Source: Vitis vinifera (Eukaryota; Streptophyta; Magnoliopsida; Vitales; Vitaceae). Taken from it: a stretch of 64,000 bases of DNA. The position numbers were made by a program, and so were the translations under genes. The notes under the pieces were generated by a model. That model worked only from the letters and a program-made list of their open reading frames with translations, was not told the origin of the DNA and did not search any database. The DNA is taken from the NCBI RefSeq assembly GCF_030704535.1, contig NC_081811.1, positions 857,501 through 921,500 of the forward strand. Direction: 5' to 3'. How positions within the stretch are numbered: position 1 is the stretch's first letter; each line of letters starts with the position of its first letter. Below are positions 26,977-64,000 of this stretch, one piece after another.

Positions 26977-28235
26977 TCAAACTCTATTGTATGCGACTGA
27001 CTTGCTAAATAGACGACGAATGTATACCACTTGGAGCCCACTTGTAGCTGCCAACAAAATGTACTCTGCCAATGTGTAGAAGACCACACGCCTTCGGGTG
27101 CTTTCATTTGCTACAATGAGAAAACAAACAACGATTTTGGTGTAAGATAGAAGTATGCAACAAGTAAATGTATAATTTTTTTATGAGTAAGATGTGTATC
27201 GTTTGCATCTTGGGTGGATTGGTGTAATCGATTTGATCTTTCGGTTTGATCATCATTTTTAATAGTTGGATCATATATAAATTAAGTTAATTTAGAGTGG
27301 TTTAATTCAGGATTCCAACACTCGTAATATAATGAAGTTAATTTAACATTTTTTAGGGAATTTGGATTGAATTTTGACTATCTTATCTGAAAACTAATTA
27401 ATGGTTAATAAATGTTTATTTCAAGATTTCAACAATCCTAATATAATTAAGGATTTTAACAATTTCATGTGAAAATTAATTAGTTGTTAATAGATGTAGT
27501 ATTGTTGTATCTTAACAATTTTTCCCTCAACATGAGACTCTAGTGATTTGAACTCATGATTCTGACTTTGATACAATTTTTTTGATTGGGCTTTGATTGT
27601 CTCACCGAAAACCAATTTGTGGACGTTGAGATCAGGGTAGAATTTTTCTAACATTCAACATCATACCTTACAGACTTATTGTAAGAGTTATCATTTGGGT
27701 AACATATCGTTAGGTTTAAGAGTGACATTGTTGCGGCCTAACATCATGAAGTAATGTTTTGTTTATTATTTAAATTTTTTAAATATAAATATATATAAAA
27801 TATCTTAAAATTAGACAATACCGTGCAATCCAATTTTACAAATTATGAATTATATAATCCAATTAATATAACTAATCTGAACCTAACTCGATCAACTCAA
27901 TCTTAATCTAGACTTGAAAAAATGAGTATGAAATGGACTTGGGTTAAAACTCCGGGTTTAAACTCCGGTTTGGTTATACACAATATTTCTCAATCCATTA
28001 AGACTTAAGTTTACCACCACTCTAATCCAACCCAAAAGAAGGAAATGTGTGATATCTATTGGATTTTTTTGTTTATAAAATAGAATGCAATTTAAGGTAA
28101 CTTACTAGCACGGTGCCTAGCATCCCGGGCTTTCAAATATTTTTGCTCGGCCGCGACAGACAACAGGGCCTCCCTCAGCTCGGTGATCCTCACATTCACA
28201 GGGTCCAAATGTTCTGCAAAATGTATGCATACATT

Positions 28236-29271: not shown

Positions 29272-32200
29272 ATGGAGGGTTCTCTGCAAATTCCCGCCTT
29301 CAATCTACTTCCTTCATCTCTTGATTTTGCTTCGGTCGAATCCAGAAACGTTCCCGCTGTAATCTCACGCATTTTTTTTCCCCTTGAATCCTTAAATGTA
29401 TGTTTAATTTTCAAATTCATATATGTTATTTAATTTAGCATTTTTTTCTTGTGATCCAAAAAGGTATTTATTGGATGCATCAAGAACTGGAGAGCTTTCT
29501 CCAATTGGAACCCCTCCAATGGCGGCCTCGATTACTTGCAGGTTTGTCGTCTTACCCTCCGTTTGGTTGCTCAGAAACCTCAAGAAAAATACTAGGAAAG
29601 TTGTTCTGGAATTCATATTCATTTTACAGTGACTGCAAATCCTAGTACCGTTATATTCTATTGCACAATAATCGTTAACAATAATTTGTACCAATAATTT
29701 CATCATCATGGATGAATACATAAGACAATTGCTGATGGTCATGATAGATATGTTGGGTATGATATCGAAGTTATTGGCATTCTTTTTTTCTTAAAAATTT
29801 TATATGTTATTTTTATTTTTGTTGTTATATTTGGTTATATGAAAGAAAATCAAATATAATTAAAATTAGTTGGAAACTCATATACTTTAAAATTATTGAA
29901 TCCTCGGATAGAAGAGAAGAAAAAGTGAGATGAGTTTGAGGAAACATCTAAAAGTAATTTATTGACTTTAAATCTAGTATTTATTTTATTTTTTTTCCAT
30001 TTTTTATTTCCTTGCATTTTTTTCTTTCTATTTTCTTTCCATCACACTTTCCATCAAATTTTCTAAGAACCAAACATGGGTTTAGTGTGTTGCTTTGTAT
30101 AATGATTATGTGATGAAACTATGATTTTTCATGAGTAATACACCTAACCATTATGGAAGAACATTGTTTGATTTGTTTCAATGCTTTGCCTTCAGAGACT
30201 TATTAAGGTTTATAATTTGCATTTTTAATCAAGGTCTGCACTCACTGTTATCCATGCATGAAAATTTAGGAAAGAGTGGGTTCGTCCACAGTAGAGGCTA
30301 TGCTATCGAGGTCTGCTCCAGTATTTTATGGCGATCTTAGAAGCCATGAAAGGGTAATTTTTCATAGCTTTTCTATGTATTTCTACCATTTCCATATTGG
30401 ATGAGAATAGCCAGTTTATTCCATTACCCTTTCTTTTTGTAGGTTCCCTTACCATTTTCAGACTTTATTGGTTTTTGTAAGCAACGCCTCCAAGACAAAG
30501 ATGTTGGTGGCAGAGTTTGTTTTGAATCAGAAAGGCATGGACTGGCAGGGTCTGATGCAGAACAATCCAATTCGCTTTTAGGAGATGCTCCTCAACAAAT
30601 TTATTTAGCACAGGTTGCAAACGGGAGGCCTGAGATAGTTAGATTATTTTCTTGCTTATTTTATTTTATTATTATTACCTTCTTTATTTTTATTTTTTTA
30701 ATTTTAAAATTAAAATTAACTTCCTTAATATTTTATTCTTCAAATATTTGTAACTCTCAAATCTATGTTGTTGTTCTTATTAGGGTGTGCTACCAAACAT
30801 ATGCATTTGTTTATAAGGATAGCAATGCTGTTATTTTGAAATGAAAATTTGGTTACTTCTGTAATTCAGGTACCAATTATGAATGTGGAGAATGATGATA
30901 AAGTTCAACTGGCAACTTTGATAGAAGACATTCAAACGGTTTGGCATTTCTTTCCAGCACTCCCTCTATGTATTTATTTTTTGTGGCTCACCACCAAAAG
31001 AGGCTTATATATATTTTAAATTTATTTTTTTTGGTTTTTTACTTTTAATTTTTGTCATTGGAGTTTGATTTTCTGATAAACTCTTTTATCAAAAAAATAT
31101 CTTCTGATGAGCTCCTTGTGCAGTATGATTTTTCTGAAAGACTCTGGTGAACTTCTGCAGCCTGCATTTTTGGAGACAAAAACACTTGCTTCTATTAACT
31201 TATGGATGAACAGTGCTCAAGCTAGATCAAGTACTCACTACGATCCACACCATAATCTTCTATGCATAATTGCTGGCTGCAAGCAAGGTTTGCTTTTTGT
31301 TTCTAAGGAAGCATCTTTTCCTACTTACCTTCCACTCATATGTTCATGGTTATGTAAGGGCTCCTTCAATATTTATTTGAGGATGATGTAAAGCATCTAA
31401 AGATCTTTTGGTGCTTACAGCTTGATGAACTTTTCATGTTGTTTGCATTATCTGTCTTGTAACACAATAAAATCTGGTGACATATGCGGAGTTTAATTTA
31501 TTGACTAAGAAAGCATATATGTGCTTGTGTGAGAATCATGGGAACTTCATGTTCCAGTAGTGGACTCTAAAAGGAAGAATTAAAGAAAAATGTTCACAAT
31601 CTGGGAAATGATAAGGTGTATTGCAAGAAGTGAATAGTATTATTGTCTCTGAATCATTTCAAATTTGCATTGGATGATGTTACTGAGGGTTTTGAGATCT
31701 GTGGAAAACTACGGGATCACATAGCTTACCTTAAAGAGAAGGTGAAATGAAGAATTCCAAAATATGGGAAAAGATGATGTGTAACAAAAGCAGAGAGTAA
31801 GGTTATTTCTTTGAGCATTATTTCAAAATTGCATAGTATTAGTATTGTTGAGGATCTTTTAGATATATGGTAATCAATGGGAACCTAAATCTTATTCTTG
31901 CCTTAAAAGTCTATTAAGTGGCTTTCAATTGTCAATAATTACAAATACCATTTTGGGTGGGCGATTTTGATTTTTCAATCCAGATCTTCCTCAATCATGT
32001 AATATTAGTTAAGCATGCCTCAAGTGGATTTCCTGGGATGTTTTTACAATTTGCAGATTGCTTATGGTTATCTTTTAATCACACTTCAGGCTCCAGCAAA
32101 TACAATTGATCTTAATAAACTTGAAGGAATCAAGTACAGGAGAGGAACTCTGGAGCTGGCTCGTACAGGTGCTATGGAGGAAACTATCAAACTTAATATC

Positions 32201-35200
32201 AGACTTACCATCAAACTTGCTATTAGAAACCTTAGGGTTTTGGTTATGGAGGAAAATTCTCTGGCCCATACAAGGAAAGAATATCATTTAAGCAGGCTTG
32301 GGACCAAAATCTGTCAGTAAATTATACTTGAATAATCCTGCATGAAACAAGCTTTAACTCCAAAAGAAACCTGTACTTTATAATATTTGTAGGGTGATGG
32401 CCTCCTCAATCCTCAATCCTCAAAAGGACATCTTTTGTATCCTACTCCAATTTCCAGTAGGTTGAGTAGGTATAAATTACTTCCCCATGCATCTAATGTA
32501 TAATGCCTAAATGTGTTTTGCATAGTACCGCCTACCATGGTCATCATTATGCATTTTTTTATCAAAGAGAATGATATTTAAATATATATTGATTCTGGTA
32601 AAACAAATTCAGTAAAATATCAGCACTGATGTGCTAGGCAGAAGGCTTCAGGTGATGTTTTCTGTTCCTTGGCTGTAGGCTGTAGCAATCTGAATCTAAC
32701 TAGGTTAGGAGATCTTGACTCATGCAGTGTGGAATTGTCCTTGGCCTGAATTTAATTTTATCATTTTCTCAATAATATCTGCCAATGCATTGTTCCAAGG
32801 GTTTTGGGTGTATTGCAATTTTAATTTCCACGAAAATTGAACTAGTTTTGGACTCTATTTTGTGTGTGATAGAGGTTTCCCTCTGGAATAAGCTTCATTT
32901 ACATCCTTTTGACTTTTATGAAATCATTTGTCTATTTCAAGATGAACTAGTTTAAGATTGAGCTTTCATGTGGAATGATTTTGTATTATATATTTTTATT
33001 TTTGCTTTCAAGTTTATAATGTGCTCTTATGATGACCAATCTAATCCTCTTTTTGACAAACTTTTTGTGCTTCTCAGTTGTTTTATGGCCCCCTTCTGCA
33101 AGTCCCTTGTTATATCCAATGCCTATATATGGAGAGGCCTCAAACCATAGGTATTCTACATTATGTATCAGTAACAGTAAACTAAAATGAAGAAAATTAA
33201 TTGCTTCTAGTATTAGGCTTCCATTCAGGGTGGACTTTTAAATTTCCAGCTTGTAAGGCTCAATCTTTTAATTTCTTGTTTATTCTTCTGGAAGTTCTGT
33301 GGCTTTAGAGGATCCTGATTTTTCAATTCATCCAAGAGCCGAACACTCAATGAAGCACTCTCAGAAGGTTATTCTTCATGCAGGGGATGCACTGTTCATT
33401 CCCGAAGGCTGGTAAGGTTTAAATCCTTGCTTCTCCAAAACAATATTGCCTTCTCACCTTTTGATTATTCCATGTGGTTTCTAAATTTATTGATGACCTC
33501 CATGAGGATTCTGAAATGACAATTACATCATTTCTGTTTTGTTATTAACTGGAACCTCTTTTTGGCGGCCGTTGTATACACTGTGTGTACTTTTGTGTGC
33601 CCCTTTTGGCGCTTTTATACTATTTTCATTTACCTATCAAAAGAAATTAACTGGAACCTCTTTTTCTACCTTACCTGCTATGTGTTTTATGACTGTTTTG
33701 CTCCTTATTCATCAGTTAATGAGAAATCTAATATTGGCCACTATAAACCTCTGACATATACAAAGAATATTTTGCATTATATATGTAATGTTGACTCCTA
33801 GTCAGACTTTGGACATGGACGTGTGAACGATGGTTTGAAAGCCATAAGGAAAATTTCATTTAAAATATCCTTTTCATTAGGCCTGAGCTAGGTCCATTCT
33901 TGAGTGGCATTTAATTTGTTTTGTGATGGAACATCAAATTTTCTCCCCAACATTAAAAGGTTAGAAAGGTAAATGCATCTTGATAATATTTATAGAACAA
34001 AGGGACGATTTTTTTTTTTTTTTTTTGAGGAAGGATGATGGAATCATTTTCAGAAATCTCAGGGGAGTTCACTGTTATTTGATCCTTTAATGGAGCACAT
34101 AGTAATTCAATGATGTTTTCTTATGTTAACAGTCCCCAGAATCATATAATCACTAATTGGCTCTGGGAATTGGGAGCATCATCTCTCAATTCTAGGTAGA
34201 GTCATTTTTCTTGCCCATATTTTGATGTCACTGAATTGGATTTCTAGTGCTAGTTTTGGTGTTTAAGTGCAAACAAAAAAGAGGGTAGAGGCTCTAGCAG
34301 CACCATTTTATGAGCTTATTGTGGTTAACTCAGTTCATGTTCTTTATGGGAGTTTGAGTCTGCTGTTACTTCATATTTTTCAAATTCAACTTCCTTTACC
34401 TATGGAAATGTATGTGTTTGTCTGGGCCCTGATCTTTTCCTGTCATTTCATTCTATCAAAAGTCATTCTGCTATTGAAGTGTGCATCTTTGGACCATTTT
34501 TTTTATCCCTACTTTATAAATTTTAACCTTTCCCAAATCCTAAGATGCTTCCATTTTCAATGATGCACTCATTACTGTTGCTGTCACTAGTCTTCATTAA
34601 GCATTTTAAAACTGTCTCCTTCAATGTGCCTGTCACTGATCTAGTTGTTTCTATTACTGTTTTTATTTATGCCGGCATGGCTACTTGTAGAATCATAACT
34701 CAATTAACCCTTTTTTACCTGACCATTTTGTGCTGTTAACCCTAGAAGTATTGTAATTGATTGAGCTTCTCACCATACACTAGTATGATACTTCTGAAGG
34801 CGCATCTCTGTTAAGCCAAGAACCTTGTTTCTATCTGCTTAAAGCTTACTCCTCTAGATTTGGTTGTATTTATTTGTTCCTTTAAGGACTATGAAAAACC
34901 TGCAAGTTTTAAGCAAGTTTCTTGGTCATAGATCTGGCTACGATTCTGCATCTGATTGTTGATTCTTCAATTGAAAATTTTGATCTGAAAATCATGCTCA
35001 TTCAATGACAAAAAAAAAGCACAAAATGATGTAGCTCATTGGAAGCCTACCATGTTAGTGTAGATGCAATTGACTTGAGGGAAGTTTTATGTGAAAAACT
35101 GTGAGGCTTCTTGCTTGGTGATGGATTAATGTGTATATGTAATTTAAGTGATTGCAACAAGCTTCCTTTTTCTAACAAAGCCTGCTAATTTGATATTGTC

Positions 35201-38200
35201 ATCCCTGCCCTGGTTGGAAGCATAGTTCACTTTTTCATTCTTGTTTTACATATTTCTTTTATATTGTAAAATTATACCTAACATGCTTTCTCTATCATCA
35301 GATTTAATATATGTGTTAAGGAATTTTGTTGTTTCTGATTGCTTCAGGTTCCATCAAGTGGATAGTAATGATCTGACTATTGCTGTTAACTTCTGGTGGC
35401 GGTCAAACATAACGTCCAGCCTGTCAGAACACATGGATGCATATTATTTGAGGAGAATATTGAGGAGGTATTTGTGGTTATTTTCTTTCAAATATTTCAT
35501 TTAAGCATTAGTAACAGAGTAGACTTACTTTGGTTCTGTTTCCATTTCATGGTTCATTTGCTCGCCAACCATTGTCTTAAATTCCAGATTAACTGACAAA
35601 GAAATGGTATGTCTCCCCTCTCTTAGTTTTCTCATTTTCAAAAAGTGTTGATAATGCTGGATTGAAACTGACTCTTTCTCTTTTTCTTTCTTTCTTATTT
35701 ATTTAAGGTTTTCATTTTATTTTATTATTATTATTTTTACTTTCTTGCATAAGGACAAATATTTCCTTCACTGGTGGAATATTGTAACTTTTATAGAGCC
35801 TTCCCTTATTCATGATTTCCATCAATAATTTATCTATGCCTTTCTAATTTTGAACCACTATTTATCCATCTCACTTCTGAGGATAGAAGGACTTTGTCAT
35901 CGTCTACTCAAATGCTTGACGGTCATGAAAACTACAAGTTTTCCCTTAAAATACTTGTTGAACTCTAATCTCTGCAAAAACTTGGGACAAGTAATTGACA
36001 TAATGGTGAATGTGGTTATGTATATTTGGCGATATTATCAAATCTCTAATGAAGCTCTCTGGTACTTGTCACAAATTATCCCAGATTCATCTTGTTGCCT
36101 TTGCTGCACTCTGCTTAGAGCAACATGTGGGTTCTGATAGCCATGGGGTAAAATAGTTCAGCTTAAAATATTTGTTCTGAAATTATCATTGCTGGATCTT
36201 CTGTAAAAACTTGAGTGAAACTGGCAGATGTAATGCTCAATGTGGTATATATCTGTGCAAATATTGCCTCAGCTAAACTGATGTTCTCTAGAAATTTGCC
36301 TTGATTTATTCCAGAATTTCGCCTTGTCACATTTGCCATCCAAAAGCTCCAGCTATGAATTAAATCATCTGAGGCCTTTATCACATGATCCATGATCTGT
36401 TGTTAAATTTTGATTCAAATTTATTATATAGTGTCAGTCCTTTATCAGTGAATTTTACTCTACTTTTCTCTTTTTCTTTTTTCCTTAGTCAAAAGCATAA
36501 GGCATCTTCCTTTTTTTAAATAGGACAGAATCAACTGCTAGGTGAGAATTCTGCTGGTATGGAGAAAATGGAAAAGCATTCATGTGAGCTGCCTAATAAT
36601 GGAGAATCAGGTCAGTTTCTTTTGGTTGCCCTTTATTTTAGTGGAATACCCTATGGCTGGTGGAGATACTGAAAATATGCATATGTTAAAATCTTTCTGA
36701 GAAATTTATTAATACAAAGATTACTTGGTCTAGTATTTTCTTTACTCATTAGAGAGATGAGGATGTTGTTCCCTATTTCTATACAAGGTTTAATTTTCTG
36801 ATTTGTTCAACTTATTACTTGCCAGATAATCATGAAAGTGATTTGGATCAGACGTGTGCGAGCAAGGATTTAAAAGGGAGTAAGCTAAAGCAGAGGATTA
36901 TGTTGCATGAAGTGGAACCCCTTGCACTGCAGGCACTTCACAAGCTTGTTGCTTTAGTCCATGACTCAGTTAAGGTTGCTGATCGAACTGAACCAGTGCA
37001 CTCCACTTCAGGAAATGATTCTGATGTTAAAGTGAAAAGTGAACAAAAGAGAATTGTGGCAAGCGATCTATTTCATTTAGAAGATGACCCGCTCGCTAAA
37101 ATTTTGTGGACCCTCGAGCCACTTACACTTCAGAATGTCTTTCTTGCCATGGTGGTGAGTTTGTATCTCCTTCAAAGCCTACACTTTTTAGTTGGTGAAT
37201 GGACTTCCTGTCAACCTTTGGTTGAAACAATCCATGCTTCATGTTGTTTTCCTTGATAATTTAATCTGCCCTGTTATATTTATTGTGTCATGGAATAAGT
37301 TATTTAAATCTAAATGGACACTCCTATGTTTATTGTAGCTTGATTAATACTTATGAGGAGATCTGCTAACATGCATCTTTATTCTCACTAATATGCTAAG
37401 CATCAACTTGAAGTGGGCAACAGGTAATCATACAGGAGTTGATTGATTTAGGTCCCTTGCATCTTGAATAGAGATATAAACCCTAGTGTGACCAATTTGG
37501 TTGCTTGATTTTTGGTCTGAGATGACATTATGAAAATGTCAGCCTTGCATCATGATTAATTGTAGGAGATGATGCTGGTAGAACACCCACCTTTTGTCAT
37601 AATGAAATCATTGTATGTTTGGCCACTATGATTTGTATTTGTTGAAACTAGTCTCTGAAGGAAATACAAACTCTTTTCCAAGTGTATCACAATATATTGT
37701 TCTTTGCAGCACAACTTCCCAAGAACTTTGGAGGCTCTAATATTATACTTGCTTTCACCGGTAGGGGCTGAAGTCCTAACACGGAAATTTGAGGAAATGG
37801 ATCAACATATCACTGAAGAAGAAAGGTTCATGTTGGGCTACACATAATAGTTTATGAATTTTTTTTTCATTAATTAGATATTTGTCTCTGATCTGTTATT
37901 CTGCATTCATGGTTTTAGGAATGAATTCTACCAGCTTTTTTATGGTGTATTTGATGACCAATTTGCTGCAATGAAAGCAATCTTAAATGGGAAAGAGTCA
38001 TTTGCACTCCAGGTAATATTGTTCTCTCTCTCTCTCTATATATATATGTGTGTGTGTGTGTGTGAGTATGAATGCATAAGCTTTTTAGAAGAAAACTTCA
38101 TTGCCATATCAAGACCATGAATAATCTCTTTGGTTTGAAATATTGTTGGTGAAAGGAAAGCATTATCATGCCAATGACAGATGGGCACCCATTTTGTGCA

Positions 38201-50510: not shown

Positions 50511-53500
50511 TCAATGGAAGAAATTAAAAAAATTCAACAAATATATCAGAGTAGAGGCACATTGTACTTGTACATGGGAAACAGGAGGCAGCAACATCTG
50601 ATAATTTGAGGTGGAAGAGACCCTTTTAACCAAATCCAAAGTGGGAGTTCTTGGTGGTATCATGACGGGGGACAGGTTGCTGACTTTGTAAGGCATGGCT
50701 TTTGACGTCCTTTGTTCCAACAAGGCGGTGGTGGTGGTGGTGATGATGGTGATGATAGTGACAGTGATATGGGGATGAGGAGGACGTTTGGAACCTGGGA
50801 ATTTGAGACATTGAACTATAATGTAGTTGGAAAAAAATTCAATGGTGATAACATTATAGCACAGTGATCAAACTTGCATGATTTATGAAAAAGAATGATT
50901 AAAAAGCAGGTAATCACTTACTCTGGTAGGAACCGAGTCCAGCCATAGCTGAGCCATCACTGCTCCAGGCATAGTTTATTTTGCATCTAAAATGGGTTGG
51001 TGCCTGGCCTGAGTCATGCACAACGAATAGAAACAGTGTTAAATGGTATAGAGATGCATGGTAACTGATAAATCAGGGATCAGGGATCGTTTAACCGTTG
51101 ACTTCAATCCATGGTTCACCAAATTATCATGTGATCCACATCATGGAGCAACTATGATAAATGGCCACAACTTTCCATCATGTCACAAGATGTCCTTTGA
51201 ATAAAAACAAGAGCAACTTTAGATGCTCGTAGGCATTTGTTTGTACAGTTCTGAATCCCTGATAAACAAATGAGGACAATAATGAAAGACTATTTGTTTT
51301 CCTATTTATGACCCAAGCAGCCCCCTGCATTGTGTTCTTAACAGACTGTTCAGTTTCATGCGCTCCCCAATTCAGTAAGGGCATTTTGTATCTCTGAGGA
51401 GCATGTGGAATGCCAGTATCAATAAACTCTATCTACCAGAAGGCTACAATTGGTTGCAAAATCAAGAGAGGAGATATAGGACACCTGGGTTACTAAAATT
51501 CCCAGGAAAAAGCTCGCTTTTGCTTAAATTTCTGAATGCTGAGTGATAAGATTTCGAATTAGTTTGTTGGAACCAGAAAGGAAGTTGCACGAGAAAATAT
51601 AGAAGAAATGCCAACCAGATCAGCCTATTGCCACAAGTGGGAAGCAACATGAACCTTGCATAGCAGCCATCAATAACGACAGATTGTAACATCAGATGGG
51701 ACTGCCTGCTGGCATGCATTACTCGCCAGGTGTTGCTGGCGGGACTCTAAACGACGGAAGTATCAACATCAAACTCCCATCACCGAGTATTCTTGTGCAA
51801 AAGTTTTTAAACTTTTTCCGGGGCACATATTAGACTCTTCAACAGAGTGATGTGCAAGTTTAGACCTGTAAATTTCATTTCTGCTTTTGGCAGATTGAGA
51901 TGAGAGTAAGTTTAGGAGATCTCATATGTGTAATGCTAATCAAGTTTTGAAGACAATTTGATATGTACAACTGAACAAGCATTGTGTGCAAAACTATCAT
52001 CTCCATATGAAACTTATTTTTACATATGTCAAAGATTGGTATAGTTTAGGTTCAGAAGTTAGTTCCATAAACTATAACACCAGGTCAACTCAACTCAACA
52101 GAACTTTATCCTATCTTGCTTCAATACGGAGATAATATTTTGCTAATCACTATTATGACCATTTTACCTGTGCCATAGATAACAACTTTTCTGCTTAGTA
52201 GTCAATACTTCTGCCGTGTTTTTCAGTCTCTCCCTTGCCTTCAACATATTTCACACAATGTGCAATCATCTGTTTCTGCTACAAATGGCCAAACTCTTTG
52301 GCTGGCTTTCTCATATCAATCCCAATGAAAAGTACATTCAACCCATCTAGTATTCCTTCATTCCTGGCTTTCTTGTCTTGACAACATTCAACAACATTAA
52401 ATGCAACTGATATTATAGATAGCTTAAATTTTTTCAGAACTTAAAAACTCCACAAGAACTTATATCCCAACCACTTTAAGATTTGATACACAAATCCTAT
52501 TTGGGCACCCAACTCAATATGGAGCCATGTCCTCTGTTAAATCACAAGCAGTCTCATGTCTATCATCACTGATTCCACTCACATCTTTTGGCCCTTCCTC
52601 TCGTCCCTATATCACCTCTTGCACCAAACTAGTTCTGATGCAATCAAAGAATCAAATCTCCAAGATGACTTTCCCTCATCTTGTTGTTAATTGAGGATAC
52701 CTCTAGCTCCTCGGGAATGCATTCACTTCCTATGACATCTTTTCTTGTATACTCATTGCCAAAATTCTCATCAGGTACACTTATTTAATTGGCATTTCTT
52801 TTCCACTCAACATGTTGCACGAGTTTCACATCATTTTTATAACTATTATAAATATTTGTTGCTTCAGTCTGAAATTTATTACACACCAAACCATACTTCA
52901 AGAGTTATAAATTCACTTTATGGGCAACATCCTCTCAGCCATTCACTCTTTCTACCATCCTTATGGAGAATCAAATTCAAGAAATAATCCCTTATCTAGT
53001 CCTCTAATTGCTAAATAATTATGTATGTGATATATCATATAATAATTATATGATAAGCACTACCATTCTGGTTATAGTGATATAATAAGATATAGATAAT
53101 ACTTCCATATATTGTTCATGTCTTTGCAACAGATATTTTCCTAGTATATCCTTTATCTACCATAGTTTTGGGGTATTATTCTTTAAATTCTGTTCTACTA
53201 TGAGTTTTATGACACTCAGTTTCGTGAATCTTATTAATCCTAGTAATGCAACAGGATATGCAAGTCAACTTATTCATAGTGGAGTCTCTATTCTTGGAAC
53301 CATTTCCTATCTCTGATATGTTGATTCAGTGTTACCTGGAACATGAATTAATGGGCATGTCAAATGGGAACTGGTACACAGTATGCCACTTGCTCAAAAC
53401 GTAGTATAGAAGGCATATTAGCATATCATACAGGAATTAACCAAGTAAAGGACACCACTGCTTATTTCTTATTTATGTTGGCCCATAGATGTATTAAGGT

Positions 53501-56500
53501 CATAACCGCTTTATCCTATTGAATTTGATTTAATTACTTCATTAACACTTTGGGGCAAAAAGGGAACATAAGGGAATGGATAAGAAGGAATTTTTGGATC
53601 TACAACAATAGTCATTCGAACACAGGCATAACACTATGTTACAGATCACATCCAGATCACATATTGCTAAAATATTAGTGAATTGTGTTATGATTTTCGG
53701 CTATCTCATCATAATTAGGAGTGTAGCACCATCTCTTCACACGTCTGCTTTCTGTCTAACACAATTCCACCCACTAGATTCTGTAAATCAAGTATATGTG
53801 ACAAGCAGAACACAACAACCGACCATGGGACCATGTAATTGATTAGAATCATTTGATTATCGACTTAAGTAAAACTTATTTAGCCGCCACCGCCATCATC
53901 TGTAGCAACATTAGAGAATTTTATCTTTCTTCGTTTTTTTTCTTAAGTTGGTACATGATTGTCACCCTTTTCTATCATATCATAAATTCCTACAAGATAT
54001 AAAAACAAAAAATACAAAATTAATTTAGATTCTCTAAGTTAAATCTTTGGATAGTCAGGTATTGTTCAATAAAACAGGGTATATTTTATGATGGCAACAG
54101 TTCTCAATATTATATTAGTTCCTAAAGTACAACTGTAGTTTCATGAACTTACAAAACTTACCGCAAAAAATTGTCTCATGGATCTTGACAGAGCATCAAC
54201 AGCTTCTTGACAAGACAACTTTCCACTTGCTCAATTCACCATCTCAAAGCATATCAACCTCCTGTTGTGTAAGTGCTGAGGCAGATGAACAACTATGTTA
54301 GCTATTTCATAGTGAACAATCCCATATGGTCATAAACATGAAGACAAAAGACAAGTATTGACACTTAGACAAATATGTTTTTTACAAATATGTGTTTGTG
54401 TGTGAACTGCCAACATCTCAAAACACTAATGTGTGTGTGTGAATTGCCAGCTTCTCAAGACACTAACTAATTATAGAATGCAAAACAGGGCAGTAGGTAA
54501 TTTAGAGAAAAAACTATCACAATCAGCGCATTCTGTACATGTGAAGCCACATCCGGAGTACATAACTGTCCTTCACCCGTAATGATGGATGGAAAAGTAT
54601 TTCCTGCAGTAGTTCACTATTTCTTTGATCCATATTAGAGTATTGAGTATGAGTTGGCTTTTTATGAATATAAATAAAGACCAACACATAAGGTTATAAA
54701 AGCCTTTGTCAATTTGAAATATGAGCCAATTTCTAAGATCTCACATGCATAATGCTGATAACTTTAAACTAGTCAATGTGGCATTCTGTTGCAAATATGA
54801 GAAATAATAATAATAACAAACATCATCCTAAGATAATATGAAGCTTTGTAAATTTTAAGATTGTTCTATATGCTCTAAAGTTCTCAAGCATTTCAGTTTG
54901 GAGTATATGAATTTAAATTCTAGAATGGTAAACAAAGCAACTCAACTCAACAGAGACTTATCCCTAACATTCTATAAGCTCTAAAGTTTTCAAGCATTTC
55001 AGTTTTGAGTATATGAATTTAAGTTCCAAAATAGTAAACAAAGCAGCTCAACTCAACAGAGACTTATCCCAAACTTTTGGTACCTGCTATATTAGTCTTC
55101 TCATGCAACCCACTCTATTTAGGGCTATTAAGTCATAATCCATCATGTTGTTTCTTGCTACCACTTCCACATTCTCTTCATCTTCTCCTTGCAGTAATGT
55201 CATTCATTATTGGTTTTTGGTGCACATGACCAAACCATCTCAATCTAATCTCTCACCTTGTTGCCAATTAGTTCTACTTACAATGACATAGTCCTCACAA
55301 ATGTATCCATTTCTTATTACAATCCCCTTTTGTCATTCCACTCACCCATTCATATTTCCTCAGCCTATCAACACCCAGTTCATGTATGTGGTGTTTATTC
55401 AAATGATACATTTTGATAAAACTGGTGTCTGCAATTGATCAGTTGGAAAACCATAACACACAGGCAAGTCTCATAAAGCCAAAGAGGGGTAGTGGGAACA
55501 AGAAAGAGGCTACTAAAGGGAAAGTCTAAAGAAGATAACATCCAATAAGTCACCATATAAAGAACCTTTTTCTTTTACTCGGTTTATAATTTATCTGACC
55601 AGCCTGATCAACCCATCAGTTCTAGTGGCCCAATTCATCAATCCATTTTTTGGATTAAAGTGACTAATGAAATGGGTGAGAAAACAATGATGGAAATCCA
55701 TTTCCAAGGTTAAAATGTTCTGATGCAGTTCACCGTTTTCTTAACTTACAAAGCTGGACAACTACCGATTAAGGCCATGGAAGAATTTCACTCTCCAAAA
55801 AATGATATATTTGGCAGACTGCAAACATCGAGACAACTTCTACCATAACAGTCATGGTTATTTCATCTCCATTGTATTAAAAAGGAAACAAAAGAAGAGA
55901 CACATATGTTGTATATTTTTCCTTTTCACTAATATAGGATGAAAATAAAATCAAGATGTATATGATAGAGGGTTTTGAGGAAGATTTTTCTTTATAGGCA
56001 AGAAAAAAGTTGAAGTAGCATGTATTAATATCGAATGCAACTTACCAAACATAAGAACATACACATGATTAGTATATAATTGGAATACATGCAAACCATG
56101 TATGATGAAATCACTTCACTCACACTCAACATGTCATATATAATTCCAAACATCTTAAATAGTTTTCAACAATCTAGCTACAATTTCAGTCAGATTATCT
56201 TTACTTGTTTCACCACATCAATGTAATCCTGTTCAATTGATTGTTAGGAAGTTGACAAAAATATGCAGCTCTTTCAAATTCAGTAAATACAAAAATTTGG
56301 CATCCAAAGCTCAAGCCTCAGCTTGGTTGAGCTGACCTCGGTTATGACCTATAAGCATCTTCTCATTTCTCATTTCAGCAAATTTAAGTCCAACAATCAC
56401 TACCCAATTCTGTAACAAAATACACCAAAATTTTGGTGTAATCTAGATGAAAAGCAAGTCCATGACCCAATAATTCTTATACTCTAATAAAATGCACCAA

Positions 56501-56841
56501 AGATTTGGTCATTTAGATACTGACATTCATTGACAATGAACAATACTTCATTTAACAACATTCACTCTACAAAAACTACCTATGATTAATCTAGATAACA
56601 GGCAAGCCCATGACCCTTTTTCCAAGTACCCAAACCTTAAACCCTAAACCCAATAATTCTATACTGTAGCCATGAAAATCAATGTTTGTATAAGCAAAAT
56701 AGAAGAGGAATGAGGAAGATCATGACATACCCATGTGTCAAATGTGCTGAGGAAAAGGAAATAGTGGCAAATCCGTGCATGAGTTTCAACCAATTTTAAA
56801 GGGCAAATCACTGAAATCTCACAAGCTTGTTTTGGAAACAT
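50511..56841 (-). CDS. Unidentified spliced gene or pseudogene, incompletely resolved
   Basis: Two pieces look like true exons. One ends at 54162 and reads GKLSCQEAVDALSRSMRQFFA before a GTAAGT donor. The next, 51003-50922, starts after a CAG acceptor and reads APTHFRCKINYAW then SSDGSAMAGLGSYQ before GTAAGT; the phase between them is exact. A last exon starting at 50794 or 50815 keeps frame to a stop at 50511 (containing AMPYKVSNLSPVMIPPRTPT). A further candidate starts at 54603 (NTFPSIITGEGQLCTPDVA), and a first exon may begin with the ATG at 56841, ending in ACATGG before GTATGT. I could not join the upstream pieces in one frame: a stop lies just before the GKLSC segment unless an inner acceptor is used. 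I do not recognise the family. It may be a decayed gene. Confidence 0.3.
54864..55074. repeat. 106-base direct tandem duplication
   Basis: Copies start at 54864 and 54970 with TTCTATA and both run through 'gctctaaagtt', 'caagcatttcagttt', 'gagtatatgaattta' and 'ctcaactcaacagagactt'. They differ at roughly ten positions. A shorter relative of the last part occurs at about 52084-52112. Confidence 0.8.
55120..55420 (-). mobile_element. Degenerate LINE reverse-transcriptase 3' fragment
   Basis: The minus strand near 55248-55218 reads RLRWFGHVHQ, the near-C-terminal signature of a common plant LINE polyprotein. Just upstream in another frame is LIGNKVRD, matching the normally contiguous sequence, so a frameshift has occurred. 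The 'actcaactcaacagagacttatccc' words at 54940-55070 resemble the known 3' tail of the same family. It is non-functional. Confidence 0.55.
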
Positions 56842-59185
56842 GGTTTTGATCTGAGAGAGCGCGCCAGCTTAGGGAATACCTCAAAACGCTGTCGTTTCGG
56901 TTCCACTTCCTCGGTCTTTCGTCACTTCTGTGATGAGTTCATCATGGTAAAGGGTTTGAAATATAAGGACTTAAGGCAGGAAAAAAGAAATCCCATTTGT
57001 TTTTAACAAAATTCTAAAATAGTTCAAAAAGTATTATAAAAAAATATTAAAAATAAAAATATTAATTTATTTCAAGAGTAAATATACTTGGTTTTCATTA
57101 AAAATATTTATAATATATAAAATATTATGAATTTAAATTTTTTTTTTCTCTAAGAGATTAAGGGCCTTTTTTAGAGCAATGATAGCAATATTATTTTTAG
57201 TCAACAACATTTTATCTCTAACACTATTTATTTGGATATAAAAAATGTACATCAATAGATTTTTTGAAAAACTTATGTACTACCAATACTAATTCAACAA
57301 CTATTTCAAATCATTCTTAATATTTTTAAAAGTAATACCTGGTTCTTTATATTAGAAAGTATTTTATGATGCTTATAAATTGGAATATAAATGAGTATGG
57401 ACAAATAAGTATTTTTGACATATGCAATGCAATTTGATTGTTTTATACCTTGACTGTTATCATATATCTTATATTATATTATCATTTATTTGTAATCTTG
57501 TTTAATTACCAAAATTTCATCGTACACTTAAAATCACGATAGCGTCAAATGTTTCCATTGTCTAGAAACTTTTCTTGTGTTGGAAGATAACAAAATTATT
57601 TTGGAATCTTTGATTTAGGTAGGTCCTTGAATGGAAAGTACAACCCAACCAAATCAAATCAACATGGGCCTTCATTTGGGTTGATGTTTTTGTCTTCAAC
57701 CTAACAGGTCAATCACAAGTAATAGGTTCTGAACAAATTTCATTTAGGAAAAAAGTACAGCAATTACAGAACATGTATGTTAGACCAATGGCAACCTTTT
57801 GCAGAACCATCTTCATCAATATCCCAAGATTGCACACACAAATGAAACTTTCAGAATAGACCCAAGTGCAGGGACACAGAGCATAGTTCCACCTCAACAC
57901 AGTGACTCTTACCACCTTTTCATATGCCTCTTTTCCCCTATATCTCTCTGCAGGCCATCTATATTCTATACCAACACAAAAAAATGGCATTGATGTCATG
58001 AGAAAAACTTGGTTGATCTTGTTTCAAAATCAAGCTAATCTTTTTTACATCTGGAACTAACACTGACCTACACTGAATCCTAAGCATTCGCAAGTTCAGA
58101 CTTACTTCTTGAGTCAATACCAAATCACAGGACAAGCAAATTTTTTTTTTTTTATATGGTTCCAAGTCATACTGGATCCCGAACCAACAACATTGAGCAT
58201 ATTTCTAGACCGACACCAAATCCTAAGCATACATCATTTCAGACTTACTTCTTAAGCTAATACCAATCCCGAGACTATTTAATTCTTAGGAATATTTTTT
58301 TGAGGCCAATATTAAATCTCAAGCACACCCCACACCAAATCTCGAGCTTTACCTAGCATTGCCAACCATTGATTTAGCCATTGTGACAGAAGGGGTTACA
58401 AGAATTACCAAAATGATTGATGTGGACAAAGATGTGACAAGGAAAAATCTTGATTGCCACCCACCTTCACATCATCAAATTCATCACCGACCATCTTTCA
58501 TTCTTTGTCTTGTTGAAACCTAAGATGACAAAGGAGGAAAAAAAAAATCTTCATATGGCTTTCACTTCATAAAGGACAACTGAAAGCAAAAATATCCAAC
58601 CGACCAAGTTAACAACCATTTGCTACTGGGTTCCAGAAGCTTCAATTTATTGTGGTTTCTAGGCTCTTGAAACTTGCAGCCACTCTTTCTCAAGTTCAGC
58701 AGGTTCTGAACAACGTACGAATTGTTTTAGGCCAAAGATAAATAATCATAGTCAATGAATTTGATGCAGAGAGTAGTGGGTTTCGATGGGGAAGAAAACA
58801 AGAACCTCAGACAAATTATGATGGGAACTTCCACAAACTCTGTTCAAGCAATTCCTGCAACTTAGAGGAATTGAAAAGAGGAGTGTACAAGAAAGAAAAA
58901 AAGGGAGAGTGAAAGAAAATTTAGAAGAAAAAATACAAGAGTTAGAACAGTAGGACTAATATTTGGTGAGGATACACTGCTTGGTAATCCTCGTATCCTG
59001 TCAATAGAGAGAAACCCAGATGAAAGTTATGGTCTAATGACACTTGCAGGGTTACAAAATGAGACAGGGATTAACCAAACAACTAGAGAAAACCTCCTAC
59101 CAAAAGAAACAGCCATTGAAGTGAAGTAAAAAGGCAACTGATGCAGAAAACTGGGGGTGGAAGACTATTGATGCAGAATGGGCTC
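56842..59185. other. Gene-free region, including the 3' flank of the heat shock factor
   Basis: AT-rich sequence with no convincing exon on either strand. The minus strand at 56900-56880 has an AAACGACAGCGTTTTGA box, a motif common in plant promoters. The part nearest the heat shock factor stop codon (about 58950-59185) is probably its 3' untranslated region. Internal repeats at 58070-58340 are listed separately. Confidence 0.45.
58070..58340. repeat. Degenerate direct repeats
   Basis: Two blocks starting near 58076 and 58218 both read 'atcctaagcat', about ten variable bases, then 'ttcagacttacttctt' and 'aataccaat'. A third, shorter echo ('aaatctcaagcac', 'caaatctcgagc') follows at 58313-58350. 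The period is about 140 bases. Confidence 0.55.
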
Positions 59186-61012
59186 CTACTGTGGGCTGGA
59201 GCCCAGGTAACCAAATCTGCCAGCCAGGACATTCACATCTTCTTCTTCTTCCTCTCCTTCAGCACCAGGTAGGCTTGATGGACAGCCAAATCTCTCATTC
59301 AATAGTTCTTCCCAGAACCCCTCATCAAGTTCTTTATCTTCACTTTCAGGAGGGTCTAGCTCTTCATGATCCTCTAGCTCCTTTCTTGGTCTACCCAACC
59401 CTTGCATTTCAAAAGCAAGTGCCTCTAGCTCTGAAACTTCAAAGCCATTTCCTTCTGTGAAATGTAGAGGCTCAATCTTAATGGGGTTCCTCAATCCATT
59501 GCCATGGCTGGATTCAGTGCCTCCAGCTCCACTAGTCCCTTGATCAATAGGCCTTCTTCTCTTCTTACTAATGGCTTCTACAATCTCCTTTCTCCTCTCC
59601 TTCTGCTGGACTAACTGCTGAATAAAGGCAGGGTTCTGCATTGCTCTTGCCAAGAAATTCATCATCTGTTGCTGCTTTATCTCTGTCCCTTGTAGCCTTT
59701 GCTCCATTGCTTGGAGTGTGATTCTAGTATTCTGCTGCTGCTGCCTGAGCTTAACCAATTCCATCATCAGAACATGCTTGTCACGCTGCAATCGATCGAC
59801 TTCTCCATCCAGTCCAAACCTTCCTACTTCAACACAAGGATCCAAAGCTTGATGTGGGGGAGGAGCCTGAGAAGGTGTCTTTCTTCTCCTGATGTTCTTA
59901 AGGAGATGTCTTTGACCCCTGATGAATCCTTCATTTGCAAACTCCCATCTGTCCGGATCAATCTTTCTAAAACCCTGTAGAGATCAAATTCCATATTTAG
60001 GATGAAATTTCAAGAACCAGTGGATAGATACTTCACATCGACCCATCAAAGGATTTCAGGCACTTGATTTAGCATTCCTGCTCCTGATCAGAGATTGGGA
60101 GAAGTGCATTTATTTATTTTATGCCCTTTCTGCATCAGATTTCAAGTTGGGGAATGGACCCACTTCCAGAAGCAACCATTGATTAAAAAATTCATTCAAG
60201 AACGGATAGAGCCACTCCATAAAAGAAGTTACTAGAAGAAACAATGGATCTGTTATTTTATACTGAAAAATCAGGAATCCAGAAACTAAATATAATTAGA
60301 ACTTTTATTTTATTCTGAAAACCCTACAGAGAACTACTCATAGCTTCATATCAGCAGTTTTTACTGAAAAGGGGAAAAAAACCAGTGAAGGTTCTAATTT
60401 TCATGGCTCTGTTACACCAAAAACCCATTAAAATAATTACACAAATGAAATTTAGCAAAGAAAATGACACTGGAGAAGGGATACAAAACTCATTCCACCC
60501 AAGAAAGCAAACAGAAAAACTACAGAATTTATAATAATTCCATAAGCGTGCAGAAATTTGGGATTTCAACAACCCAAATGAAAATTTTAACTAAAAAAAT
60601 GATTTAGGGAATTTCTCATGATTCAGTAAGCATACAGAGATGTGGGATTTCAAGAATCCAAGGGAATTCTCATCTGATATCCCTGGAATTAGATTTTGTT
60701 GAAGCTAATACTTACATAAGTGTTGAGCTGCCTGACAAAGCTTGAGAAATTATTGTGCTTGAAGTTTTTGGGGAGGAGATTGGTGGAGAAGGCATGGGGG
60801 TCCCATACAACAAAGCTGCTACCTGCTCTGCTCCAAGAGACCACATGATCGCTTGCTGGGTCATCCACAATGTCAAATGTCTTTGTAAGAAATGGCGGAG
60901 GACCCGCATCATGAAGCCCCTCAACCGGCTGTGGCACTACCGGTGGCTCACCGGACTGGGGGGAGGAACTCGATCCTGGAAACTCCTCCTTCACAGGGTA
61001 CATCGGATTCAT
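59186..61012 (-). CDS. Class A heat shock transcription factor (HSFA2/A6/A7 clade, complete)
   Basis: Binds heat shock elements as a trimer and activates chaperone and stress genes. Exon 1 (61012-60716) and exon 2 (59974-59186) join in phase to 361 residues. The DNA-binding domain spans about residues 37-131 ([16 protein letters not shown] to KNIRRRK), and the single intron falls after RQLNTY, its conserved place in plant HSFs. A coiled HR-A/B region (about 158-215) has the long insert typical of class A. It is followed by the nuclear signal SKKRRRPID, an AHA activation motif [13 protein letters not shown] and a C-terminal export-type motif [12 protein letters not shown]. All expected parts are intact. 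The N-terminal [10 protein letters not shown] and [19 protein letters not shown] resemble HSFA6b most, but A2 and A7 are close. Confidence 0.95.
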
Positions 61013-61410
61013 GATTAAAAATCAATGGGTCTCGATTCTTTCCTCGAAATTATACGTGAGTAGCCGATACAGAGCCTAATCCGAACGTGGGATTAGCCGG
61101 AAAAACAGAGTCCATACACCCAAAAAAAAAAAAAAAACAGTATTATACAGTGAAATAAAACAGAATTCTAGATGATAAGAAGGAGACACAGTGCCCCCAA
61201 TGAACTATTTCAAAAAAATTTCAAAAAATTTGGACAAAGTGAAAGTGAGATTGAGAATCAGATGAAGAGAGAAAGTAAGAGTTTGGATTATTCTTTTGCT
61301 CCACACAAAGCTTTCCTCATTAGGAAGGTAGTTGAAGCCGTTATGGAGTTGGTGGTGGCACTCCATGGACAAAGGAGCCGAGGAAGTGGTGTTTAGGCCT
61401 ATTAATAGAG

Positions 61411-61505
61411 TCTAGAAAAATCGAAAGTTCTAGAGGTTTGAGGGTTTTCTCCGTTTCTTGAGAGAGAGAGAGAGAGAGGCCGGTGGTCCATGGAAAGTTC
61501 TGGAA
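61411..61505 (-). promoter_or_regulatory. Heat shock elements upstream of the HSF gene
   Basis: A perfect three-unit element GAA-nn-TTC-nn-GAA occupies 61493-61505. A second, nearly perfect one (GAA-ag-TTC-ta-GAg) lies at 61423-61435, with a further half-site (TCtaGAA) at 61411-61417. They lie about 400-490 bases upstream of the start codon and on either side of a (GA)n run at 61460-61478 that looks like leader or core promoter. They suggest auto- or cross-regulation by HSFs. Confidence 0.7.
61460..61478. repeat. (GA)n microsatellite
   Basis: Nineteen bases of pure GA repeat between the two heat shock elements; on the HSF transcript strand it is a CT run, common near plant transcription starts. 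Confidence 0.85.
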
Positions 61506-62218
61506 TGTGGGGGACTTGGGATGGTGTGGTATGGTAGAGGCATGGTGTGGGCCCCACACGTATTAAAAAGAGGTGGATTTAAGGTCTATCAAAGGTTTTT
61601 GGACAATTTTTTTAATAGGTGCCCTTCGTTTTGAGCCCACTAATAATTGGATGACATCATTGACAACATCCACTAGGTTTAGCTAGAGTCACAAAAAACT
61701 GAGTCTAAGTTGGCCATTTCTTTTCTTTTTTGGTGGGGATTTTCTAAATTATGGTCTTGTTGAAACCTAAAAGGCCTTAGAAAATGACACCCCAAATATA
61801 TTTCAAAATCCAATAATTAAAATCAAACAAATATTTCCCTTAAAGTCCATCTCATTTCACCAATTCCATTTGCTCCAAGTTCATTGGGTGAGTGGTCTTC
61901 AAAGCTTCCTCGTCATATGGTGCCTTTCACTTCCTGAAAATATCTCAAAAGTTGAAATGTTACTTAGTTTTCGACGTGAACTTTACATATTTGCAAATTA
62001 GACCCGATGTGAGCTGTAAGTGTTACCGACACAAAAAAAATCAATGAGCATCTTTTGGGATTTGCTCGTTTCATATCACTAGAGAGAAAATAGTCCGAGG
62101 ACACACCCGCCGCTTGTTTTTTAAATCATTCAATGGGTCCAAAAGGCTGATTTTATTAAATCAATTTCCTCAATTTTCTTTTTTATTACACACTGTACGG
62201 ACAAATTTCAACTGTATT

Positions 62219-62724
62219 ACGTGTCGATTGCTCGGAAACAATGCCGGACAGGTGGGGGTTTTCTACTGGCTGCAGCAAATATTTGAAACTCCCGCTGAGT
62301 CAGAGTACAGCGAACTCTTACGTGTCAAGCTGTGTTGGACAGGTGGATAGTTGTCATTGGCCACTGTAGTATGAAATGCCCCCCGCCGAAATGCAACGTG
62401 TCAAGTTGTTTCAACTTTCGGACACGTGGGGGATCTGTAGGCATGCTGCGATACAAGAAACTCGGTCCGAAAACCGTACTGTGGCCGTTCCGAAACCGTT
62501 ACGTGTCGAGCGATTGTTCGGACGGGTGGGATTCTATCATTGGACCAATGGTTCCGAAATACAGTTGGTGGCACAGTGGAAGTATTACGTGTCGAGTTGT
62601 TATACAGCATGGGACAGGTGGAAGTCTCCCATTGGTTAATAGTGTACTGAACGGCGATAGTATCGAAACTGTTACGTGTCAAGATAATTCAGGGTATTCT
62701 GGAAACGTGGAGGATTCTCATTGG
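62219..62724. promoter_or_regulatory. Six-module array of ACGTGTC plus inverted ER-stress-element-like boxes
   Basis: ACGTGTC starts at 62219, 62320, 62396, 62501, 62587 and 62674, always in the same orientation and mostly continuing as ACGTGTCRAG. About 16-32 bases later each has GGTGG or CGTGG, then exactly nine bases, then ATTGG: GGTGG 62251/ACTGG 62265; GGTGG 62342/ATTGG 62356; CGTGG 62425 (box lost); GGTGG 62525/ATTGG 62539; GGTGG 62617/ATTGG 62631; CGTGG 62706/ATTGG 62720. Read on the other strand the last is a perfect CCAAT-N9-CCACG element. The nine-base spacers differ from unit to unit. It lies between the heat shock factor and the divergent gene at 63875. Confidence 0.75.
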
Positions 62725-62835
62725 CTTCTGTAAAACGATAAATGGTGCTCAGACTTACAGGAAAAAGAATTATATGAACTAAGTAAGTAAGATTACTATT
62801 ATTATTATAAATATTAAAATAATCTTTGAACAGTG

Positions 62836-63260
62836 CCACGTGGATGCCTCTGCAGGTGCCATAGTGGTAGCAACGTGGCTAACGCTGAACTGTTGGAGAA
62901 CTAAATAATAATATTATCTACAGGAACTTTCTATTACACTAACATATTTATGTCGTAATTTAAATATTTGTGAGAGGAGTCGGAAGAGAAGGTATTGTGG
63001 CTTTTGCGTTTGATAATTATATTACGTGTCAAGCTCTGTCAGCACGCGTATCGAGAAACCAAATCACGTGTCAAGTTGTTATTGAAGTACAGTGGGCAAG
63101 TGGTCGATGCAAGAAAAAGACTACTGTGTAGAAAAAAAAAAGAAGCGATTATATAAATAGCTAAATGCAAGTGGGAGGTTTTAGTTATATATATAATATA
63201 ACATGATAAATATTAAATAATTTTATGAACACGGCCACGTGTTATCGACAAGTGGGAAGG
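62836..63260. promoter_or_regulatory. Outlying ACGT-core boxes beyond the array
   Basis: CCACGTGG palindrome at 62836-62843, AACGTGGC near 62872, ACGTGTC at 63024 and 63066 (each followed by AAG) and CCACGTGT at 63235-63242 followed by GACAAGTGG. These are the same words as in the array to the left, but the nine-base CCAAT geometry is not kept here. Confidence 0.55.
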
Positions 63261-63287
63261 CGATTGTAGGACCACGATCATCGATAA

Positions 63288-63530
63288 ACTATAAATAAAT
63301 AAATAAATAAAATTATCCATATCAAATTTCTACAATTAAAAAATTGAGAAACAGAACCTTCTACATTGTTCTAGTATCTACTGATATTAGAGGGCCTTTC
63401 TAACAACTAAATTCAACGGCCCAGATCAGTCCAGATGTAATGGTAACTTATCTCTAGAACTTCCCTATCTTAAATAAAAAAAATAAAAAATAAAAAATAA
63501 AACAAATAAATAAAAACACGACAATTAGTG
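63288..63530. promoter_or_regulatory. A/T-rich tracts and site II boxes before the right-edge gene
   Basis: An (ATAA)n run near 63288-63312 and an A-rich tract at 63472-63515 occupy this part. Further toward the gene are GGCCCA-type boxes at about 63418, 63530, 63565 and 63585, and 'gtgtgtttggtt' at 63611, which resembles the end of a foldback element. The transcription start cannot be placed exactly. Confidence 0.35.
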
Positions 63531-63854
63531 GCCCAGACCACCCCCATTTTCTATCCCTAGGCCCGGCCCACAGGTTATAACATGGCCCGACCCACAGAAA
63601 ATCCAAGGGTGTGTTTGGTTACAAATTTTAAAGAATAATATTGATAGTTTAAAAGGTGTCACTACTATCAACGACCTTCAACTATAATTTTAGCGGGCAA
63701 TCCAAAACTGGCTCGGAGTCAAATATAAGAGCGGGTTCGGGTCGGTTCAAAAAACCGCAGAAACTACAGCGACCATCTTCGTACACGGAGCGCGAATCTC
63801 TGCTTTCAATCTCTAGTATTATTCTCTCACCATCTCGTGCTCTGCAGGAATGGA

Positions 63855-63878
63855 ATGATTCCATCATCGAATCCATGA
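63855..63878 (+). other. Short upstream ORF overlapping the next start codon
   Basis: ATG at 63855 opens a seven-codon frame whose stop TGA overlaps the ATG at 63875 as ATGA. A second ATG at 63850 is followed after one codon by a stop. If both are in the mature leader they could limit or shape initiation at 63875. Confidence 0.4.
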
Positions 63879-64000
63879 TTCAAACATCAAGAATTCTTCT
63901 ATTTCTATTATGGTTTCTCGCTTCCCAAACACCTCCATTGAATGGGGAATCGTCGACGTGTTTGATGGTGTACAAAGAGGGCGGTGCTCCGGCGGTTTTC
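63875..64000 (+). CDS. Secreted or membrane protein, N-terminal fragment cut by window edge
   Basis: An open frame of 42 codons runs to the right edge. It starts MIQTSRILLFLLWFLASQ, a clear signal peptide (short positive start, hydrophobic core), then GESSTCLMVYKEGGAPAVF. That second part reminds me of the N-terminus of a plant protein phosphatase 2C/kinase-like family, but this is from memory and only 20 residues support it. The start is the first ATG that opens a long frame; two earlier ATGs give tiny upstream frames. The product should enter the ER, which fits the ER-stress-like boxes upstream. Confidence 0.55.
   Translation, partial: MIQTSRILLFLLWFLASQTPPLNGESSTCLMVYKEGGAPAVF

Follow-up and report, generated by a model that had tools for sequence, protein, structure and literature searches.

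Six related units at positions 62219–62724 of the window, by which we mean the whole 64 kb stretch of grapevine DNA that was analysed, probably form a distal promoter or enhancer of six duplicated modules, each an ABRE-led composite of bZIP and NF-Y sites, between an HSFA7-type heat shock factor (HSF) gene and a protein phosphatase 2C (PP2C) gene. The array probably turns on one or both of these neighbours under stress.

The six units were anchored on ACGTGTC (box A) and GGANNNGTGG. Box A starts at 62219, 62320, 62396, 62501, 62587 and 62674, with intervals of 101, 76, 105, 86 and 87 bases, confirming the original prediction of six such units 76–105 bases apart. Each unit also contains a box B (GGA-NNN-GTGG), with the core GGTGG in four of the six and CGTGG in two, as predicted. 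Box C (ATTGG) lies exactly nine bases after box B in units 2, 4, 5 and 6, while its place is taken by ACTGG in unit 1 and by AGGCA in unit 3, the same counts of exact, altered and lost copies as had been foreseen. The B–C distance had been described as always nine, which is true of the exact units 2, 4, 5 and 6 and of unit 1 with its ACTGG, but not of unit 3, where there is no box left to measure. The consensus is TTACGTGTCRAG for box A and CATTGG for box C. Box B reads GGACAGGTGG in three units, and GGACACGTGG, GGACGGGTGG and GGAAACGTGG in one unit each (Table 1).

Table 1. Units of the array and surrounding features (positions in the window)
Feature	Position	Strand	Components
Unit 1	62218..62269	+	ABRE TACGTGTC 62218-62225; box B GGACAGGTGG 62246-62255; decayed CCAAT (ACTGG) 62265-62269
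Unit 2	62319..62360	+	ABRE 62319-62326; box B GGACAGGTGG 62337-62346; N9; ATTGG 62356-62360, matching RRCCAATSR on the minus strand
Unit 3	62396..62443	+	ACGTGTC 62396-62402; box B GGACACGTGG 62420-62429, which reads as an ABRE (CACGTGTC) on the minus strand; AGGCA (62439-62443) in place of the lost CCAAT
Unit 4	62500..62551	+	ABRE 62500-62507; box B GGACGGGTGG 62520-62529; N9; ATTGG 62539-62543; a second, plus-strand CCAAT (GACCAATGG, 62543-62551) overlaps it
Unit 5	62586..62635	+	ABRE 62586-62593; box B GGACAGGTGG 62612-62621; N9; ATTGG 62631-62635, matching the NF-Y consensus
Unit 6	62673..62724	+	ABRE 62673-62680; box B GGAAACGTGG 62701-62710; N9; ATTGG 62720-62724, matching the NF-Y consensus; sole exact ERSE of the array (CCAAT-N9-CCACG, minus strand, 62706-62724)
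Possible degenerate extension	62835..63241		ABRE-type sites 62835 (-), 63023 (+), 63065 (+), 63234 (-)
HSF gene, HSFA7a/A6b type	59186..61012	-	ATG 61012; two exons
Three-unit heat shock element	61493..61505		HSF side, outside the array
PP2C gene start	63875..64000	+	ATG 63875; runs out of the window

The spaced B–C pair, [CG]GTGG-N9-ATTGG, occurs four times in the 64 kb window on both strands, and all four copies are inside the array; the looser CCAAT-N10-CAC[CG] occurs five times, once outside it. When the 541-bp array was shuffled 5000 times with its dinucleotides preserved, the spaced pair appeared 0.0048 times on average and at most once, as compared to the four observed. ACGTGTC, observed seven times in the array on both strands, reached a mean of 0.17 and a maximum of three. 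The array is real, and the B–C module is far beyond chance. On the other strand box B reads CCACSTGTCC, and from the letters it looks like a diverged, inverted version of the box A core. If it is, each unit would hold two bZIP-type sites in inverted orientation, the second of them with a CCAAT beside it.

The array may extend beyond 62724 in degenerate form. Positions 62660–62842 align with 63048–63241 as a gapped, diverged duplication with many gaps (z 6.2). Aligned as a whole with 62741–63300, the six-unit half did not exceed shuffles (z 1.8), and no GTGG-N9-ATTGG was found within the putative extension.

Alignment of the six units bore out the expectation that the boxes are kept better than the spacers, and that the B–C distance is fixed. 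Mean pairwise identity between units was 1.00 for box A, 0.88 for box B and 0.68 for box C, as compared to 0.28–0.52 for the flanks and spacers, with a random expectation of about 0.25. The original prediction had further called the spacers unrelated. This is correct for the 8 bases before box B (31% alike, p 0.12) and the 15 bases after box C (28%, p 0.21), which are at chance level, but not for the 14 bases before box A (40%, p 5e-5), the 8 bases after box A (52%, 0 of 20000 random draws) or the nine bases between boxes B and C (37%, p 0.006), all of which are more alike than chance allows. When whole spacers were aligned, the C-to-A spacers gave a z of 3.0 and the A-to-B spacers a z of 1.7. 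Since the spacers are not wholly unrelated, the units share descent, in line with the proposal that composite sites grew by tandem duplication, and this residual similarity also implies that part of the box conservation reflects common descent. On the other hand, free drift after tandem duplication would make all sites diverge alike, which the boxes and spacers of the array do not. The distances behave just as unevenly: the four exact units all have a B–C spacing of nine, whereas equal A–B spacings occur in only 1 of 15 pairs and equal C–A spacings in 0 of 10, and the A–B distance takes five values across the six units (8–18 bases, counted from the end of ACGTGTCRA). A neutral, decaying minisatellite, with boxes that look conserved by chance, would explain the similarity left in several spacers as tandem descent. 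We nevertheless consider it very improbable, because all six units share the same box A and their box B copies are 88% alike, yet the stretches before box B and after box C have fallen to chance, and because the A–B and C–A lengths vary and the B–C length does not.

The best-kept box is an ABRE. Box A matches PyACGTGTC in five of the six units, and the ABRE core PyACGTG(G/T)C has six matches in the 541-bp array, four in the next 560 bp and 14 in the whole window; a second ABRE-type site and a CCAAT are present in the units as well. The NF-Y consensus RRCCAATSR is matched four times in the array and 12 times in the 64 kb, the matches in the array being three of the four ATTGG boxes and one that overlaps unit 4. 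Against the published definitions of the ER-stress element (ERSE-I, CCAAT-N9-CCACG; pERSE, CCAAT-N10-CACG; PMC3645738, PMC3935401), ERSE-I is exact in one of the six units, CCACC stands in for CCACG in three, and CCAAT is absent in two. Neither TGACGT nor ERSE-II was found in the array. Unit 6 is an ERSE by sequence; taken together, the six units are no more than ERSE-like. Hence the predicted ER-stress-element geometry survives as the nine-base spacing of four units, with the exact element confined to unit 6.

The array resembles ERSE-I and pERSE in order, in orientation and, in four units, in the nine-base spacing, with one exact copy. It differs from ERSE-I in that three of these four units have CCACC, in its tandem arrangement, and in the inverted ABRE-type box that lies ahead at a variable distance. 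The second relative is the ABRE with a coupling element, in which an ABF/AREB bZIP acts with NF-Y. In A. thaliana, the COBIND analysis describes the same NF-Y-like co-motif beside ABF1, ABF3, ABF4, GBF2, GBF3 and HY5 sites, where it forms the ERSE motif (PMC11472169), and the PyACGTGTC boxes of the array share this likeness. Here, however, there are six tandem units, and the CCAAT keeps its fixed distance from the second, variant site rather than from the canonical ABRE. The COBIND authors add that the pairing had no protein-interaction support in their set, and that the NF-Y motifs at HY5 sites may be used only when bZIP28 binds (PMC11472169). Meanwhile, NF-Y has been proposed as an ABRE coupling element, and a two-hybrid interaction between NF-YB2 and ABF3 is described (PMC3602376). 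Given that an NF-Y motif in the ERSE arrangement also accompanies ABF, GBF and HY5 sites, and that NF-Y is a proposed coupling element of the ABRE, the ERSE spacing does not by itself indicate ER stress.

We examined the nine-base spacing in the whole genome by counting anchor boxes followed by ATTGG within 30 bases. Nine was fixed beforehand, near-copies were collapsed by hand, and an anchor with two ATTGG was counted twice. For GACACGTGG..ATTGG, corresponding to CCAAT-N9-CCACGTGTC, 18 of the 87 collapsed matches were at nine, as compared to 2.3 per other spacing (binomial p 3e-10); the 87 were kept from the first 100 of 122 matches, and the uncollapsed count was 18 of 100. Because CCAAT-N9-CCACGTGTC so strongly prefers nine, this genome follows the ERSE spacing as a working rule. 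For GACATGTGG..ATTGG (CCAAT-N9-CCACATGTC), nine was found in 10 of 78 collapsed matches (p 2e-4) and in 12 of 100 uncollapsed ones; the 78 came from the first 100 of 158 matches, and 2 of the 12 spacing-nine rows were dropped as copies. This enrichment may in part reflect CpG decay of CCACGTGTC, or CCACATGTC may be an accepted variant. The control GACAAGTGG..ATTGG (CCAAT-N9-CCACTTGTC) had no preference for nine, with 1 of 81 collapsed matches (kept from the first 100 of 130) and 1 of 100 uncollapsed.

The array's own version, GACAGGTGG..ATTGG (CCAAT-N9-CCACCTGTC), was at nine in 6 of 56 collapsed matches outside the array, as compared to 1.7 per other spacing. The p value was 0.009 when collapsed, 0.045 when uncollapsed (6 of 80 outside the array), and 0.23 were all 31 spacings open. 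From its 82 matches, 23 were dropped as copies with an identical or near-identical spacer, and 59 rows (58 distinct) were used; since 0 of 8 spacing-nine rows were dropped, the collapsing favours nine. At nine, the array version differed from the control (p 0.019 collapsed, 0.031 uncollapsed), while the CACGTG and CACCTG versions did not differ significantly (p 0.17). The patterns read backward gave 38 (GACAGGTGG), 24 (GACACGTGG), 25 (GACAAGTGG) and 29 (GACATGTGG) matches, and this control is uninformative on spacing. CCACCTGTC would not arise by CpG decay of CCACGTGTC, and it looks like an accepted ERSE half-site variant, as judged from six sites. The suggestion that CCACC is a variant recognition site therefore gains a weak preference for nine, tempered by the uncollapsed p value.

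The spacing also bears on the identity of box B. B3 factors of the RAV/NGATHA type prefer CACCTG, and box B could be mostly a CACCTG site for such a factor, or for a bHLH, next to NF-Y, leaving bZIPs at box A alone. CACCTG is indeed present on the minus strand in three of the six box B copies. However, at this position the remaining copies have CACGTG, CACCCG and CACGTT, and CACGTG sites genome-wide prefer this very spacing to CCAAT, so that we regard this assignment as improbable.

A rather stronger rival, though still an unlikely one, is a dedicated enhancer of the ER-stress response (UPR), in which bZIP28/bZIP60 and NF-Y would read the ERSE-like half and accept CCACC, the ABRE boxes would be secondary, and the HSF would be wired to the UPR as in maize. 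The exact ERSE of unit 6 and the ERSE spacing of four units are consistent with it, as are reports that maize bZIP60 activates Hsftf13, an HSF of the A6/A7 group (PMC7833377), and that bZIP28 competes with HY5 at the ERSE G-box (PMC5826264). Against it, five of the six units lack an exact ERSE, the ABRE is the better-kept box, and TGACGT and ERSE-II are missing from the array. The canonical CCAAT-N9-CCACGTGTC sites were searched as a potential regulon. The 30 open frames scanned beside 18 of these sites, a small part of all frames and sites, included no ER chaperone, and the 18 loci were without a visible [KHR]DEL end, although two secreted-type proteases among the frames would fit the UPR. 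The Pfam matches in these frames are of many kinds (PP2C, aspartyl protease, serine carboxypeptidase, polyubiquitin, zinc-finger and ribosomal proteins, and others), with many frames unmatched, and the regulon is not decisive between ABA and the UPR. At one of the loci (L031:4546-6222), a canonical site lies about 150–180 bases before a PP2C gene (best PDB match PP2C 37), a possible ABA feedback target.

HSF genes of this group have both inputs on record, as Arabidopsis HSFA6b responds through AREB/ABF–ABRE control by AREB1 (PMC7833377). Acting on the grapevine HSF gene, the array would be another case of bZIP control of an HSFA6/A7-group gene, like AREB1–HSFA6b and bZIP60–Hsftf13, although no array is described there in the available text (PMC7833377). 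Since box A is an ABRE, an exact ERSE is confined to one unit, the NF-Y co-motif accompanies ABF sites and both inputs are on record, we place ABRE-led control first and UPR-led control second. Of the original suggestion that the array may link ER-stress and heat responses, the HSF neighbour is confirmed, but an ER-stress input is not established, with box A an ABRE and one exact ERSE in six units.

To our search, the array had no relatives elsewhere. Both halves of the region matched themselves alone in the genome (495.6 Mb, 21 contigs, the window being C7:857501-921500) at E up to 10; the search skips very common words and could miss diverged short copies, and the lack of a match is thus not proof of rarity. 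At this sensitivity, the array is apparently single-copy. The strict A–B–C pattern has seven matches genome-wide, three in the array and four in near-identical copies of another stretch on contig C5. These copies, about 103–108 kb apart (G000:C5 near 1989589, 2092468, 2200354 and 2308233), carry ACGTGTC, CACGTGTCC and GGTGG-N9-ATTGG, and are another place with the module. A triple ACGTGTC arrangement was matched twice genome-wide, both times at the array, which adds little because the reversed-pattern control also had two matches.

Short repeated motifs with variable spacers, in both orientations, are typical of the subterminal repeats of plant CACTA and hAT transposons, and the array has the same look. 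It could be the relic of such repeats, once kept for transposase binding, and its direct and inverted motifs, together with the possible larger duplicated region, would suit this origin. A scan for inverted ends (left ends 61850–62225, right ends 62725–63700, 12 bases, up to 2 mismatches) returned 74 pairs, as compared to 6, 21 and 35 in three shuffled controls; flanking duplications of 2–3 bases accompanied some of the pairs. The best 25 of the 74 pairs were A/T-rich or low in complexity, and in the ranges scanned no pair had a flanking duplication of at least 5 bases, a result that leaves room for ends with shorter duplications. Further copies, which CACTA and hAT elements would lead one to expect, were not found within the limits of the similarity search, and the boxes match host factor sites with the spacing preferred genome-wide. 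The array is probably not a mobile element, and we consider a transposon relic quite improbable.

The 541-bp array holds 33 CpG, the most among 541-bp segments stepped by 100 bases across the 64 kb. Its observed/expected CpG ratio is 1.12 (0.92 with the boxes masked), as compared to a window median of 0.26, 1.25 for 62740–63300 and 0.44 for the HSF-side flank (61100–62200). This would fit long-term freedom from methylation, or young sequence. Elsewhere in the window, 22000–27000 is very A+T-rich (24% GC) and has a ratio of 1.02, as compared to 0.17 in 30000–36000 and 0.24 in 52000–57000, and a 106-base unit is repeated twice at 54864–55074 with 91% matches.

The neighbour on one side is indeed a heat shock factor, as predicted. 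Its protein matches a Vitis vinifera protein with 305 of 307 aligned residues identical, both mismatches being at gap edges, and where names are given among the 120 best relatives listed, they are mostly HSF A-7a or A-6b, and some A-2. On the other side, four open frames were scanned, and two of them gave hits to Pfam PP2C (1.7e-17 and 3.2e-8). The N-terminus of this protein, for which the original prediction named a signal peptide, looks hydrophobic. Between the PP2C exons, an open frame (L008:5783-6178) resembles, by eye, an RNase H remnant of a copia-type retrotransposon. The array lies 1207–1712 bases from the ATG of the HSF gene and 1151–1656 from that of the PP2C gene, and this distance of more than 1 kb from either ATG counts against the promoter or enhancer reading. 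Heat shock elements were rejected as the purpose of the array, which contains only a single two-unit element. In about 4 kb upstream of each of five HSF paralogues, a selection from those identified, neither ACGTGTC nor CCAAT-N9-CCAC[CG] was found; one of these upstream regions has 11 ACGTG and one PyACGTG[GT]C. The array is thus not a general HSF feature, and it arose or survived at this locus. It may serve the PP2C gene rather than the HSF gene. The listed literature on grapevine HsfA7 promoters yielded no mention of the array.

We infer the bound factors, the stimulus and the target as follows. Box A would be bound by an ABRE-type bZIP dimer of the ABF/AREB group; other bZIPs that recognise ACGT could compete for it. 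Box B (CCACSTGTCC and variants) would be a second bZIP-type site in opposite orientation, lacking the ACGT core in four of the six copies, and an NF-Y trimer on the CCAAT nine bases away would hold this low-affinity site, acting as the coupling element. Repetition of the module would both strengthen and steepen the response. As inputs, ABA or drought are likely, together with ER or heat stress through bZIP28/60 at the ERSE-like half, and the likely output is the HSFA7-type gene, the PP2C gene or both. More speculatively, and with little confidence, the array could be a locus-specific tandem enhancer that repeats an ABRE with a weakened ERSE (CCAAT-N9-CCACCTGTCC), in which NF-Y rescues bZIP binding at the low-affinity site. 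Such an enhancer would integrate ABA and ER/heat signals for the HSFA7–PP2C pair in an AND-type or graded manner, and CCACC would be a selected, accepted plant ERSE variant.

Discussions of composite bZIP/NF-Y sites usually treat them as single elements. The array offers a natural six-copy series in which the CCAAT spacing is fixed, the bZIP sites vary in quality and the spacers are free, and hence a ready-made experiment on spacing, affinity and copy number in the stress response. The genome-wide spacing counts provide a simple ranking of the ERSE half-site variants that a plant accepts. The array is also a case for how the pathways of heat, ABA and ER stress could converge on a single HSF gene.
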